From SAR324 cluster bacterium (lineage in GTDB: Bacteria; SAR324; NAC60-12), in contig JADGAV010000001.1 in assembly GCA_015231825.1 (NCBI GenBank), positions 378,248-442,247 of the forward strand: a DNA stretch of 64,000 nucleotides, read 5' to 3'. The position numbers and the translations under genes are program-made. The notes beneath the pieces are model-generated. The model was not told where the DNA came from, did no database searches, and was given only the letters and a program-made list of their open reading frames with translations. Of this stretch, positions 12,198 to 17,593 are shown in pieces (within the stretch, counting starts at the first letter, position 1; each line of letters starts with the position of its first letter).

Positions 12198-12353
12198 AAT
12201 AAAACGACATCTGCAATTTCAGTTTGTTGAAACCTGCGACACGCAGCAGGAGTACTTTTCCACTTTTCCAATATATTAAAAATCTGATGATGATATTGAG
12301 CGTGTTTTATTTAAGAACGCAAGGGCCAATTGCTGTCTGCGAAAGAGAGGAAC

Positions 12354-14624
12354 ATGCCTGAAAAAAAGAGAAGCGCGGCTTCTTCAAAAATAAACAAACT
12401 CGAAATCATGCCGGGTGTGTATTGGGTGGAGATAAAAGAGGCAGAGGTGCGAATTCTTTGTGCTTGCCCTGAAGACAGCGTCAAACACTTGATGAGACGA
12501 GGCATAATTGCACCGACTGAAGAAAATGGAGTCCTCTTTGAGACGGGTCCTAATGTTATTTTACTCTCGGATATACTTGTACAGAATGGAAAATTTTCCA
12601 ATCTGGCCGAGTTTCCTGTTTTGCAAATGCTGTATCGACAAGGGATGATCTTACCCAATCATCCCAACAATACAGGAATAAAGCCCACTTTAATTGGTTC
12701 CCGTCAACAAGTTGATGCTCAAATGCGATATATTTACCAGGGAAATTACGGGTTAACCTGCGAAGAGGATATAATAAAAACAGGGATTTCTCCTGAACTC
12801 GCAAAAGTGATGATGCAACTCAAACTGAAATTTGCTTTTGGGGCTATTCGTCCATTTGAAGAGTTGCTGGATGTATGTATTGTTGAACAGGAAAAGGAAG
12901 AGATCCGGAATAAAGTTTTCATAAAACGGAAACAACTGAACGTCTACGAAATTCAATATGGAGATGAGTCGGTCAGCGTCGACCTCAACTTACCTGCCAA
13001 TACAACTTATAACCCCCCCTACCGCTTAGGATTTCACAATATTCGTCGAGAGTATTTTTTTGCGGTCCTGCATGCGGGAGAAGGTGATGGTTGGGATATA
13101 CACCGTCCCTGTATGTCCAGTATTTTGATGTTTCAAGGGAAAATATTTTTAATTGATGCAGGCCCAAATATTCTGCACAGTCTGACTGCACTGGGAATCA
13201 GCGTCAATGAAATAGAGGGAATTTTCCACACCCATGCCCATGATGATCATTTTGCCGGACTGCCGACTTTGGTACAAAGCGACTACAAGTTGAAATACTA
13301 TGCAACTCCTCTGGTAAGAAAGGCGGTGTTTAGAAAATTTTCTGCGTTGACATCAATAGATGAAGACCAGTTGTATCAGTATTTCGAAATACACGATTTG
13401 GAATTTGATGTCTGGAATGACATCGACGGGCTTGAGGTTCAGCCGATTTTTTCTCCCCACCCTGTTGAAACCAGTATTTTTATTTTTCGGACGCTTTGGG
13501 AAACCGGGTACCAGTCCTATGCTCATTTTGCTGATATCATTGCTCTTGACGTGCTCAGGAAAATGGTGACCGACGATCCTGAACAGCCAGGAATTTCTCT
13601 CCAGTTTTTTGAAAAGGTTCGCGAAAAATATCTCACCCCGGCAAGCATCAAGAAAATTGATATCGGCGGCGGACTGATTCATGGAAAAACACAGGATTTT
13701 CACGAAGATAGTTCTGAAAAAATTATGCTCTCCCACACCTCTCTCGATTTGACAGAGGAACAGAAAATGGTTGGTTCAGGGGCTCCCTTTGGAATGATTG
13801 ATGTCTTTATTCATTCCCAGCAAAACTATGCCATGCGTCAGGCATCCCAGTATATCAGAGCCTATTTTCCAAATGCACCTGCACATTTGATCAGTATTTT
13901 GTTGAACAATTCAGTAAAGACCTTCAATCCAGAAACAATTCTTCTTAAAACAGGGGAAATTCATGATGATATTTTTCTTCTTTTAACCGGGACAGTTGAA
14001 CAAATTCAACCGATGTTGGGAGTCTATAACATCTTAACAGCCGGATCGCTTGTCGGAGATATTTCCGGGCTGCACGAAATGCCCTCCATAGAAACCTATC
14101 GGGCACTCAGTTTTGTTCAGACCCTGAGAATTCCAAAAAACCTATTTTCAGATTTTGCCAAAAAGTCTGACGTTTATTCTCAGATTGATGATTTTCAGGA
14201 TACCCGGGAATATCTGCTGGCCTCACCTGTTTTTGGGAGTTTGTCCTATCCAGTGCTCAATCGAATCGTCAAGTCCATGAAAAAGGTTCATTATGATACT
14301 GATTATGAATTGCCAGATCAGGTGCGCGCCGACATTTCGCTTGTAACAGGGGGTGAGATTGAATTGTTTATTGAAAATACGGTTATTGATACCTTGACAG
14401 TCGGACATTGCTTTGGTCAGGAAGGAGTCCTTTATCAAAAACCAAACTCAATTAAAATGCGCACTAAACATGAAACTGACGTATTTCAAATTCCCGGAGA
14501 TGTGATTCAGGAAATTCCGGGCGTTTTATGGAAGCTTTCTGAACTGTATGAAAAACACGATCGAATGTTAGGGAATTTCCTGCCCAAAGGCAGTTCAAAG
14601 CCACCCAACTCAGAAAATAAATAA
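12354..14624 (+). CDS. MBL-fold protein with two C-terminal cyclic-nucleotide-binding domains
   Basis: This protein has about 756 residues. An unassigned N-terminal region (about 1-210) precedes an MBL hydrolase domain with the complete zinc signature THAHDDH (about 294) and further histidines in FSPHPVE, YAHFAD and GGGLIHGKT. The C-terminus carries a cNMP-binding/CRP-type roll (LLKTGEIHDDIFLLLTGTVE to AGSLVGDISGL, about 530-620) and a second, weaker one (DISLVTGGEIELFIENTVID to VGHCFGQEGV, about 630-720). There is no DNA-binding domain and no signal peptide. It is probably a cytosolic hydrolase gated by cAMP or cGMP, and a cyclase is encoded nearby. AGAGGA just upstream supports the ATG at 12354 over 12330. 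Confidence 0.8.
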   Translation: MPEKKRSAASSKINKLEIMPGVYWVEIKEAEVRILCACPEDSVKHLMRRGIIAPTEENGVLFETGPNVILLSDILVQNGKFSNLAEFPVLQMLYRQGMILPNHPNNTGIKPTLIGSRQQVDAQMRYIYQGNYGLTCEEDIIKTGISPELAKVMMQLKLKFAFGAIRPFEELLDVCIVEQEKEEIRNKVFIKRKQLNVYEIQYGDESVSVDLNLPANTTYNPPYRLGFHNIRREYFFAVLHAGEGDGWDIHRPCMSSILMFQGKIFLIDAGPNILHSLTALGISVNEIEGIFHTHAHDDHFAGLPTLVQSDYKLKYYATPLVRKAVFRKFSALTSIDEDQLYQYFEIHDLEFDVWNDIDGLEVQPIFSPHPVETSIFIFRTLWETGYQSYAHFADIIALDVLRKMVTDDPEQPGISLQFFEKVREKYLTPASIKKIDIGGGLIHGKTQDFHEDSSEKIMLSHTSLDLTEEQKMVGSGAPFGMIDVFIHSQQNYAMRQASQYIRAYFPNAPAHLISILLNNSVKTFNPETILLKTGEIHDDIFLLLTGTVEQIQPMLGVYNILTAGSLVGDISGLHEMPSIETYRALSFVQTLRIPKNLFSDFAKKSDVYSQIDDFQDTREYLLASPVFGSLSYPVLNRIVKSMKKVHYDTDYELPDQVRADISLVTGGEIELFIENTVIDTLTVGHCFGQEGVLYQKPNSIKMRTKHETDVFQIPGDVIQEIPGVLWKLSELYEKHDRMLGNFLPKGSSKPPNSENK

Positions 14625-15166: not shown

Positions 15167-15438
15167 ATTTAAACTGTTAGGCCTCATCCAGTTCGGAGAT
15201 GAAGTGGAGGAAAAAGTTTAAAAAGTCTCTTTCAGGAAAAAAGAAGAAATACCACAGATTGAATCGGCTAATGTGTGAGGATGGCATTCCCATGCAGAAA
15301 AATATGATTTGTGCCTGTCTTTCTTTACTGCTAAGTCATGGTATCCTAAACTCCTTGTAAAATTTTAAACAACAACATTGACCTTGTTTATTTCAATGGA
15401 CCTTTTCAGCTAAAATGAATCTAAATTTTTCTTGATAT
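15167..15438. other. Intergenic region with a truncated signal-peptide-like ORF
   Basis: About 270 bp. A 22-codon ORF starting with ATG at 15294 reads MQKNMICACLSLLLSHGILN and soon ends in TAA. It resembles a lipoprotein signal peptide cut short by a stop and may be a remnant. Nothing else is recognised. Confidence 0.3.
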
Positions 15439-16569
15439 ATGTCTCAAACTGCACTTTGGCGAATCTCGATCCTTGTCTCTCTATTTTGGGTAGGCGTTAT
15501 TGGAGTGAGTTGGTACTGGAAGCACAATTCCTATAACCCCAATCCAGGAGGGTTCGACTCCTCAGGATCAGTAAAAAAATTTCTAAGTGAACATCGTGAA
15601 TCTTTTAAGGAACGTAATAGTGAGGAACCGATTTATGTTCCCACTGGATTTTTTATCCAATCGCTACGTTTTATGACAAAAACCGATATTCAGCTCAAAG
15701 GATATATTTGGCAGAAGTATCCGCTTGAGGTTCCAGACTCGATCTCACGGGATTTTATTTTACCGGAGTTGGTGGATGCCGCAGATACGTTTACCAAAGA
15801 AGAAATGTACCGTGAAAAGCATGAAGACTACGAGGTGATTGGCTGGTATTTCGAAGCAATTATGCGCCATCATTTCAATTATCATGAATACCCTCTGGAT
15901 CACAAAACAGTCACGCTTCGCTTGTGGCCGAAAAATTTTACCCGAAATGTTATTTTCACTCCTGATTTTGAAGCGTATCCCAAGAATTTGAAAGATATTC
16001 TGGGAATTGAAGAGGACATTGTTCTTCGCGGATGGACACTTGATGAAACTTTTTTCAAATACCATATGATCCACTACCAAACAGATTTTGGAATCGGACA
16101 TATGGTTGATTTGAGAGAACGTCCGGAACTGAGCTTTAATATCGTGATTGTGCGTGACTTTCATAACGCCTTCATAGTTCATCTGATGCCCTTGATGGTC
16201 GTTCTAATACTTTTGTTTGCCGTGGTTATCAGTATTTCCAAACATCCCGAAAAAAAAGAAATGTTTGGTGCCAACATGCATGGAATCATTGGCAGCTGCT
16301 CTTCACTGTTTTTTGTGATCATGCTCTCCCACATTCACTTGAGGCAAGAATTTCTGGGAGCAGAAGTTGTCTATGTCGAGTATTTCTACTTTCTTTCCTA
16401 TGCCGTTTTGTTGGTAGTAGCACTGGATAGTTATATTTACTTAAGCGACAAATTTCCAAATTGGAGTCTCGTTCATTCAAAAGACAATGTGATGGTTAAG
16501 GTGCTATACTGGCCTCTAGTTACTGGAATTTCAGCTTTATTCACTGTCCTCGCTTTTTTCTCTGTTTAA
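15439..16569 (+). CDS. Pentameric ligand-gated ion channel-like membrane protein
   Basis: This 376-residue protein has an N-terminal hydrophobic segment (about 8-25), a roughly 210-residue polar domain and four C-terminal hydrophobic helices. These sit at about 247-268 (FIVHLMPLMVVLILLFAVVI), 284-303, 312-334 and 352-374. The polar domain shows spaced features of the Cys-loop receptor ligand-binding fold. These include HHFNYHEYPLDHKTVTLRLW, like the bacterial FxxxxFPFDxQxL signature, and a strand entering M1 after the last sheet. The loop lacks the paired cysteines, as in other prokaryotic members. It would sit in the inner membrane with the sensing domain in the periplasm and pass ions on ligand binding. 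The assignment rests on topology and short motifs. Confidence 0.6.
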   Translation: MSQTALWRISILVSLFWVGVIGVSWYWKHNSYNPNPGGFDSSGSVKKFLSEHRESFKERNSEEPIYVPTGFFIQSLRFMTKTDIQLKGYIWQKYPLEVPDSISRDFILPELVDAADTFTKEEMYREKHEDYEVIGWYFEAIMRHHFNYHEYPLDHKTVTLRLWPKNFTRNVIFTPDFEAYPKNLKDILGIEEDIVLRGWTLDETFFKYHMIHYQTDFGIGHMVDLRERPELSFNIVIVRDFHNAFIVHLMPLMVVLILLFAVVISISKHPEKKEMFGANMHGIIGSCSSLFFVIMLSHIHLRQEFLGAEVVYVEYFYFLSYAVLLVVALDSYIYLSDKFPNWSLVHSKDNVMVKVLYWPLVTGISALFTVLAFFSV

Positions 16570-16933: not shown

Positions 16934-17593
16934 ATGTTTGGATTTATTAAAAATACTTTGTTTCATAATTATGAGCATTCAACGAAACGTACCGACTGGG
17001 AGTCCGTTCTTGATGAACTTTTCCTCCAAGTGATTCATGCCTCTAAAATGGGCCTTGCTGTGATTTCAAACACTTCTAGAGCCGATGAGAAGGACAGCAG
17101 CGGAATTGCATCGTCTCAATTGACTTACCGAATTGATAAAGAGCAGAAAAAGGAATTAAAAGAAGCAGCACGAATGTTAGAAAAAGAGCATTTTGAACGA
17201 TTGTTTTCAACGAGAGATAAAATGAAACCGGTAGTTTTTGATTGCTATCGAGTAAAAAATCCAGCGTTTTTGAGAAGCACTCTTATTTATTTTATTGAGA
17301 AGGATTCCAAAAAAGCGATCCTTCTCTTTGCACTCCCATTGGTTCAAACCCACTTGTACCGATTTGTTAAAATCATAAGCAGCATCCTCTCCCGCCCAGA
17401 AAAACGAGTAAAAAAAGTCAAAGGAAAGGCACCTCAATCGTTTTCAGTCCATCAGTTTTCAACAATCAAGTTTGAATTGCTCAAAGAACGATTGAATTAC
17501 CTCGATGGTCTCGATCATCTCAGCAACAAGGAAATCAAAGAAATGGAAGCTTTGGAAGACTTCGTGAAGAAAGAAATGAGCGAAATGTTTTAA
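16934..17593 (+). CDS. Hypothetical cytoplasmic protein
   Basis: A 219-residue protein of no recognised family. No signal peptide is seen. The weakly hydrophobic stretch KKAILLFALPLVQTHLYRFV (about 128-150) is followed by a very basic segment (EKRVKKVKGK) and a charged helical C-terminus ending in KKEMSEMF. The start is well supported by AAGGAG followed by ATCAA before the ATG. The predicted gamma-carbonic anhydrase gene follows within 100 bp on the same strand, so the two may share a transcript. No functional clue is available. Confidence 0.75.
   Translation: MFGFIKNTLFHNYEHSTKRTDWESVLDELFLQVIHASKMGLAVISNTSRADEKDSSGIASSQLTYRIDKEQKKELKEAARMLEKEHFERLFSTRDKMKPVVFDCYRVKNPAFLRSTLIYFIEKDSKKAILLFALPLVQTHLYRFVKIISSILSRPEKRVKKVKGKAPQSFSVHQFSTIKFELLKERLNYLDGLDHLSNKEIKEMEALEDFVKKEMSEMF

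Follow-up and report, generated by a model that had tools for sequence, protein, structure and literature searches.

The window analysed here, a stretch of 64,000 nucleotides from a SAR324 cluster bacterium, contains at positions 15439-16569 of the plus strand a complete open reading frame that starts with ATG and encodes a protein of 376 residues, an earlier start being blocked by an in-frame TGA at 15433-15435. The gene is present in one copy in its own 5.8 Mb assembly. A VOC-family gene lies 272 bases upstream and an ORF of 219 residues (16934-17593) lies 364 bases downstream, the latter with no family above cut-off in Pfam or NCBIfam, and neither an operon nor an adjoining sensor gene was evident in this neighbourhood. 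A conserved VOC-channel gene pair was considered and rejected: VOC genes occur upstream both in the window and on the Acaryochloris plasmid that carries a relative of the protein, but the two VOC proteins share no significant similarity. Elsewhere in the window, positions 12330-14624 encode a protein of 764 residues in which two cyclic-nucleotide-binding stretches are combined with a metallo-beta-lactamase domain close to RNase Z. The features of the gene, with the evidence for each, are as follows:

15439-16569, plus strand: coding sequence of a stand-alone subunit of the pentameric ligand-gated ion channel (pLGIC) family, 376 residues (ORF and translation)
15445-15531, plus strand: M0, extra N-terminal membrane helix, residues 3-31 (AF2 model and hydropathy; found in relatives too)
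15562-15618, plus strand: linker helices ahead of the beta domain, residues 42-60 (AF2 model)
15619-16155, plus strand: extracellular beta-sandwich ligand-binding domain, by homology, residues 61-239 (AF2 model, structure alignment and profiles)
15889-15900, plus strand: Pro-loop signature YPLD, residues 151-154 (translation and counts in profile A4; motif as given in PMC4795631)
16153-16155, plus strand: R239, the arginine ahead of M1, expected to form a salt bridge with D154 (counts in A4; PMC4795631)
16159-16233, plus strand: M1, residues 241-265, with kink proline P251 (AF2 model and counts in A4)
16276-16350, plus strand: M2, residues 280-304, putatively pore-lining, with G285 at 2', S289 at 6', F292 at 9', L296 at 13' and R302 at 19' (AF2 model and alignment)
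16372-16446, plus strand: M3, residues 312-336 (AF2 model)
16480-16560, plus strand: M4, residues 348-374 (AF2 model)

Hydropathy analysis of the translated protein gave five peaks (residues 5-23, 246-264, 283-301, 310-328 and 355-373), and the AF2 model, computed with an alignment of 30 sequences (pLDDT 86.9, pTM 0.81), places a helix at 3-31, eight strands within 65-239 and four further helices at 241-265, 280-304, 312-336 and 348-374. Both approaches thereby recover the N-terminal hydrophobic helix and the four C-terminal helices noticed in a preliminary description of the sequence; the beta-rich domain proposed there appears in the model as well, although closer to 180 residues than to the roughly 210 estimated. 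The segment YHEYPLDHKTV, likened in that description to the FPFDxQ signature, is present and holds YPLD at residues 151-154. As had also been remarked, cysteines are lacking in the loop: the sole cysteine of the protein is C287, within M2, and the pair closing the loop, a trait of metazoan Cys-loop receptors, is absent.

Taken alone, the window protein matched no family in Pfam or NCBIfam at E<=1, hence neither a Neur_chan nor a Cache family, and a phmmer search of the PDB returned just two chance-level matches; likewise, a PF02931 search of its own genome did not include this gene among its matches. In contrast, the profile A4, built from 32 family sequences, reached GLIC as the best PDB match (E 3.8e-9), the best 60 of 113 matches being all GLIC-type, so that the profile search advised beforehand succeeded with the family and failed as a direct Pfam Neur_chan match. 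Because membrane helices may mislead, the extracellular domain was tested separately. The profile of this domain alone again placed GLIC at the top of the PDB matches, with a modest E of 0.0012, and its alignment by hhalign with the corresponding domain of five further bacterial pLGICs gave a probability of 99.2% (E 1.1e-19, 163 columns), versus 0.3% for a Cache-domain control. Pfam Neur_chan families match four of these five references at E<=0.01, in two cases above a curated cut-off, and the fifth is a fusion with a PBP-I sensor (L041; PF02932 at E 2.7e-5, GABA-A receptor chains by phmmer at 5.6e-10).

The predicted structure leads in the same direction. A Foldseek comparison of the AF2 model with the PDB gave a best E of 2.7e-13 and 1086 matches at E<=0.001, the best 50 being all pLGICs, with DeCLIC at rank 42, while a second structure aligner superposed model residues 60-375 on GLIC (5heh_A; Z 20.5, rmsd 3.5, 283 residues) and also matched ELIC. 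The helix 3-31 falls outside the ranges aligned to the GLIC and ELIC rows. No rival fold appeared among the fold matches listed for this model or for that of a sensor-fused relative, both lists being full of pLGICs. Comparison with GLIC, ELIC and DeCLIC had been recommended for the preliminary assignment to the Cys-loop receptor superfamily, and the outcome named there as its refutation, another fold or strong matches elsewhere, did not come about; family profile, fold and conserved hallmark residues all agree with the assignment. The window protein is homologous to pLGICs over both domains, with the pLGIC fold and conserved gating residues, and since related proteins in many genomes keep the same residues, its ORF does not occur by chance.

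Hallmark residues of the Pro-loop superfamily are tabulated in Table 1 of PMC4795631. The (F/Y)PxD motif at the tip of the beta6-beta7 loop is found in the window protein as YPLD, and in A4 its first position is Y or F in 31 of 32 sequences, its proline is invariant (32/32) and its aspartate occurs in 31/32. The pre-M1 arginine corresponds to R239 (31/32 in A4), the beta9 aromatic residue to W199 (W, F or Y in 31/32) and the M1 kink proline to P251 (25/32). Two hallmarks are missing from the window protein, namely the proline of the M2-M3 loop, replaced by L306 (P in 16 of the 32 sequences at that column), and the basic residue at M2 0', replaced by I283 (mostly V or I across the family in the A4 alignment); in the frequencies given in PMC4795631, these residues reach 88% and 79%, respectively, which makes them frequent but not universal in the superfamily.

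With prime numbers taken from a single alignment in which the M1-M2 linker varies in length, the M2 helices of A4 carry a small residue at 6' (32/32), phenylalanine at 9' (28/32), His or Gln at 15' (32/32) and Arg or Lys at 19' (31/32), and no acidic residue is conserved near -2', where the cation filter would be expected. The chosen register keeps the half-conserved M2-M3 proline aligned; a GLIC-like register, laying the GAN of the window protein on the EAN of GLIC, was set aside for this proline-keeping alignment but may yet be the right one. Arginine occupies 19' in glycine and GABA-A receptors, and by analogy Arg or Lys at this position may be a hint, and only a hint, of anion selectivity in the family. 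GLIC itself, the proton-gated channel of Gloeobacter (5heh, 3eam), shares with the window protein the fold of residues 60-375, the YPxD loop, the beta9 aromatic, the pre-M1 arginine and, in the GLIC numbering of Table 1 of PMC4795631, an M1 proline at the same +12 spacing from that arginine. Identity is nevertheless 12-14%, the window protein has M0 in addition, and its family is set apart by phenylalanine at 9', Arg or Lys at 19' and the want of a conserved -2' acid.

The preliminary description regarded the extra N-terminal helix as the mark of a divergent member. The helix is real, but its being a family-wide trait, common to sensor-fused relatives, had been missed. Proteins from Thiotrichaceae, Vibrio and genome G053 consist of an N-terminal region followed by the same channel module as in the window protein, this region being Cache-like by Pfam in the Thiotrichaceae and Vibrio proteins and without a match in that of G053. 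Across the family, dCache_1 was detected in 22 of the 30 members scanned (Pfam, E<=0.5), and in most of the relatives examined one or two Cache sensors anchored in the membrane stand before M0; within the 376-residue chain of the window protein, Pfam found no Cache domain. By hydropathy, the order in most fusions is a membrane helix, the sensor, two membrane helices, the beta domain and four membrane helices, with one or two peaks below threshold in some of them. In the AF2 model of a Thiotrichaceae fusion (pLDDT 77.6), helices 264-288 and 295-323 lie between sensor and beta domain, the latter being the one with which M0 of the window protein aligns. The fold search of this fusion model covered its channel half (residues 354-648), the Cache half being assigned from Pfam.

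The arrangement of the sensors varies widely. The longest forms, with frames of 909-1061 residues, have space for two sensor regions, and Pfam recognised two dCache_1 stretches in the form from G195 and gave no match at E<=0.01 in that from G152. A binding-protein-like gene lies directly upstream, on the same strand, in all seven long-frame genomes examined (G195, G147, G152, G134, G196, G139 and G177; phmmer, E<=1e-5), and the four of these seven genes scanned with Pfam were all Peripla_BP_5; one other form near 900 residues, that of G191 (893 residues), has no adjoining binding-protein gene. At two split loci (G189 and G190), a short channel gene beginning with M0 is preceded by a separate gene of 450-458 residues, which matches dCache_1 at 8.9e-7 at one locus (L076) and no Pfam family at the other (L077). 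M0 therefore remains with the channel when the sensor is separated. On the Vibrio plasmid (L008, 1445-5696), three genes with overlaps of a few bases form an apparent operon: an SBP_bac_3 gene, an unassigned gene whose product looks like a membrane protein, and the Cache-channel gene. Inspection by eye of five other loci (L071, L073, L078, L079 and L082) showed that the neighbouring gene is often cysteine-synthase-like or glycosyltransferase-like, and several stand-alone relatives (L007, L084, L085 and L087-L089) carry C-terminal tails past M4 that the window protein does not have.

In a tree of 32 rows with arbitrary rooting, 28 family members are split from four canonical pLGICs by a branch with 100/100 support, both trees that were built containing long branches. 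M0 belongs to the whole of this separate bacterial pLGIC branch. The window protein groups at 100/98 with six stand-alone proteins, that of Acaryochloris and five from the class of G198, and this group is nested within the sensor fusions at weaker support (94/87, 87/52), a position that makes loss of the sensor likely, though not proven, in the stand-alone group.

Direct searches retrieved the protein of an Acaryochloris marina plasmid (38% over 97% of the query), one Vibrio plasmid locus represented by three records and two Thiotrichaceae loci. Profiles then placed the family in 30 of the 101 genomes searched from the G053 class, where genomes here are of about 1 Mb. Of 52 genomes from the phylum of the window, two gave matches, the second match being not a family member but a PBP-I fusion. 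Among 383 relatives searched, 12 genomes had a match, seven with family members and five with other pLGICs as judged by E-value and tree, and in the class of G198 62 of 338 genomes gave a match, seven of them scoring family-like (best E 1e-108 to 8e-74). Few genomes of the window's phylum thus carry the family gene, and the closest relatives of the window gene are found elsewhere, which suggests that the window gene was acquired by lateral transfer. A search with PF02931 in the order of G053 gave no match in 49 genomes, yet it was equally silent in 14/14 control genomes, so that this result is no proof of absence; a further comparison with the same model likewise gave 0/14 in control genomes. 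Two candidates were dropped, L003 (E 5.1e-4), whose locus lists three ORFs without pLGIC features by eye, and L004 (E 0.0046), which contains internal stops. Two broken family members were also seen, one interrupted by about 1.3 kb beside an ORF that looks transposase-like by eye (L059, G198) and one by an in-frame stop (L057, G209), both with intact relatives.

Fusions of Cache sensors to channels of this kind have been known since 2004, when Tasneem et al. (PMC549065) described Cache/MCP-N fusions to ART-LGIC in Methanosarcina, Cytophaga and Microbulbifer, together with binding-protein operons and a chemoreceptor role. By description, those proteins resemble the present ones in having a Cache sensor before the pLGIC module and binding-protein genes close by, and differ in that the extra domains are placed between signal peptide and LBD, the passages of PMC549065 on these fusions mentioning no membrane helices between Cache domain and LBD. 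Methanosarcina acetivorans, for which the same paper reports a homologue, was among the control genomes silent to PF02931; hence the 2004 fusions may belong to the branch of the window protein, or they may not. DeCLIC is another bacterial pLGIC with an N-terminal accessory region, but its NTD1 and NTD2 lobes are periplasmic in the account of PMC12664993, whereas the accessory part of the window protein is a membrane helix.

PBP-I-pLGIC fusions (L041, L092) are also related, L041 being matched by the family profile at 4e-11 and by Neur_chan_memb at 2.7e-5, just under the cut-off; they differ in their sensor domain, and L041 (as L048) falls outside the branch of the window protein in the trees. 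This other kind of pLGIC is present in the window's phylum as a 778-residue fusion in G004 (L041/L061), a genome of the same family as that of the window. A frame of 1185 residues (L090; G788:C91, 199-3753, minus strand) combines Peripla_BP_6 at residues 51-401, a pLGIC-like region at 420-751 by profile and a C-terminal SBP_bac_1 at 801-1091, a channel flanked by binding proteins at both ends, and L091 has a frame of similar length (1264 residues). In the literature search, no paper was recognised as describing a pLGIC whose ligand-binding domain is preceded by an additional membrane helix, and none was found on a branch in which such a helix is obligatory, on double sensors that share an operon with a binding protein or on split sensor genes.

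Considering these data as a whole, the window gene probably codes for the subunit of a homopentameric ligand-gated channel in the Pro-loop (Cys-loop) superfamily, a stand-alone member of a divergent five-helix bacterial branch. Homology, fold and conserved residues form the basis of this reading, and from them we infer the pentamer, the pore and its conduction; the topology, ligand, ion and selectivity considered below are inferred likewise. The N-terminus would be cytoplasmic, M0 would cross outward and lead into the beta-sandwich, and five subunits would come together around a pore formed by their M2 helices. Binding of a small ligand would occur outside, at subunit interfaces or via a partner sensor docked on M0, and the strain would travel via the contact of D154 with R239 and via the loop that joins M2 to M3. 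At F292 (9'), a hydrophobic gate would open to let ions flow, and membrane potential or the local ion level would signal the presence of the ligand. A Cache sensor fused to the channel, as in the relatives, would push M0 through its own second membrane helix, while in the window protein that sensor would have been lost or never present. Across the branch, M0 may serve sensors as a lever or docking site, and in the window protein it may be a dock for an unlinked sensor or an anchor only.

Several alternatives bear on the role of M0 and of the beta domain. The N-terminal helix could be an ordinary cleaved signal peptide, leaving a canonical four-helix pLGIC as the mature protein, as its location at the extreme N-terminus, its length of about 18 residues after one basic residue and the signal peptides reported in bacterial homologues by Tasneem et al. 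(PMC549065) would allow. We nevertheless consider this unlikely: the same helix is internal in the sensor fusions, where an N-terminal signal role is impossible, and in four stand-alone pairs M0 keeps 42-61% identity versus 7-45% in the linker, being clearly higher in three of the four (the exception is L087/L088, 42 versus 45). Gating in trans, by a separately encoded Cache sensor that docks on M0 while the beta domain of the channel binds nothing, has a somewhat better chance of being correct, though still a minor one. The two split loci, where a separate gene stands directly before a sensor-less channel, and ten dCache_1 matches (E<=0.001) in the window genome are in keeping with it, while the want of a sensor gene adjoining the window gene argues against it.

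Other alternatives concern the channel itself. A true pLGIC fold might be retained in a non-conducting membrane receptor that relays conformational signals to partners, a possibility that gains from the missing M2-M3 proline and basic 0' residue and from the broken family members in some genomes; since the small residue at 6' and the phenylalanine at 9' give M2 the face of a gated pore, we regard it as quite improbable. That the likeness merely reflects a chance combination of a beta-rich stretch and four hydrophobic helices in some other family deserves practically no credence: the window sequence by itself is indeed unmatched in Pfam, NCBIfam and the PDB, but profile, AF2 fold, Foldseek matches, hallmark residues and the extracellular-domain matches with their Cache negative control refute this explanation computationally.

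At the level of the family, and only tentatively, these proteins could represent a deep pLGIC branch invisible to Pfam, in which an obligatory M0 would link the channel with interchangeable sensors in the membrane (a single Cache domain, a pair of sensors together with a binding protein from the same operon, a sensor encoded by a split gene, or none, as in the window protein). Such proteins would work as chemoreceptors with ion-flux output instead of kinase control, and the M2 chemistry, without a conserved acidic filter and with Arg or Lys at 19', would make them anion-permeable. Since Pfam misses the members tested, Pfam-based counts of bacterial pLGICs would be too low. The branch bears on what bacteria use channels of the neurotransmitter-receptor type for, by joining the channel module in several ways to chemosensory modules already known, providing testable ligand candidates among the ligands of Cache domains and binding proteins. 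The natural series of fused, double, split and stand-alone forms offers in turn a handle on how pLGICs are gated by a sensor and an extra membrane helix.
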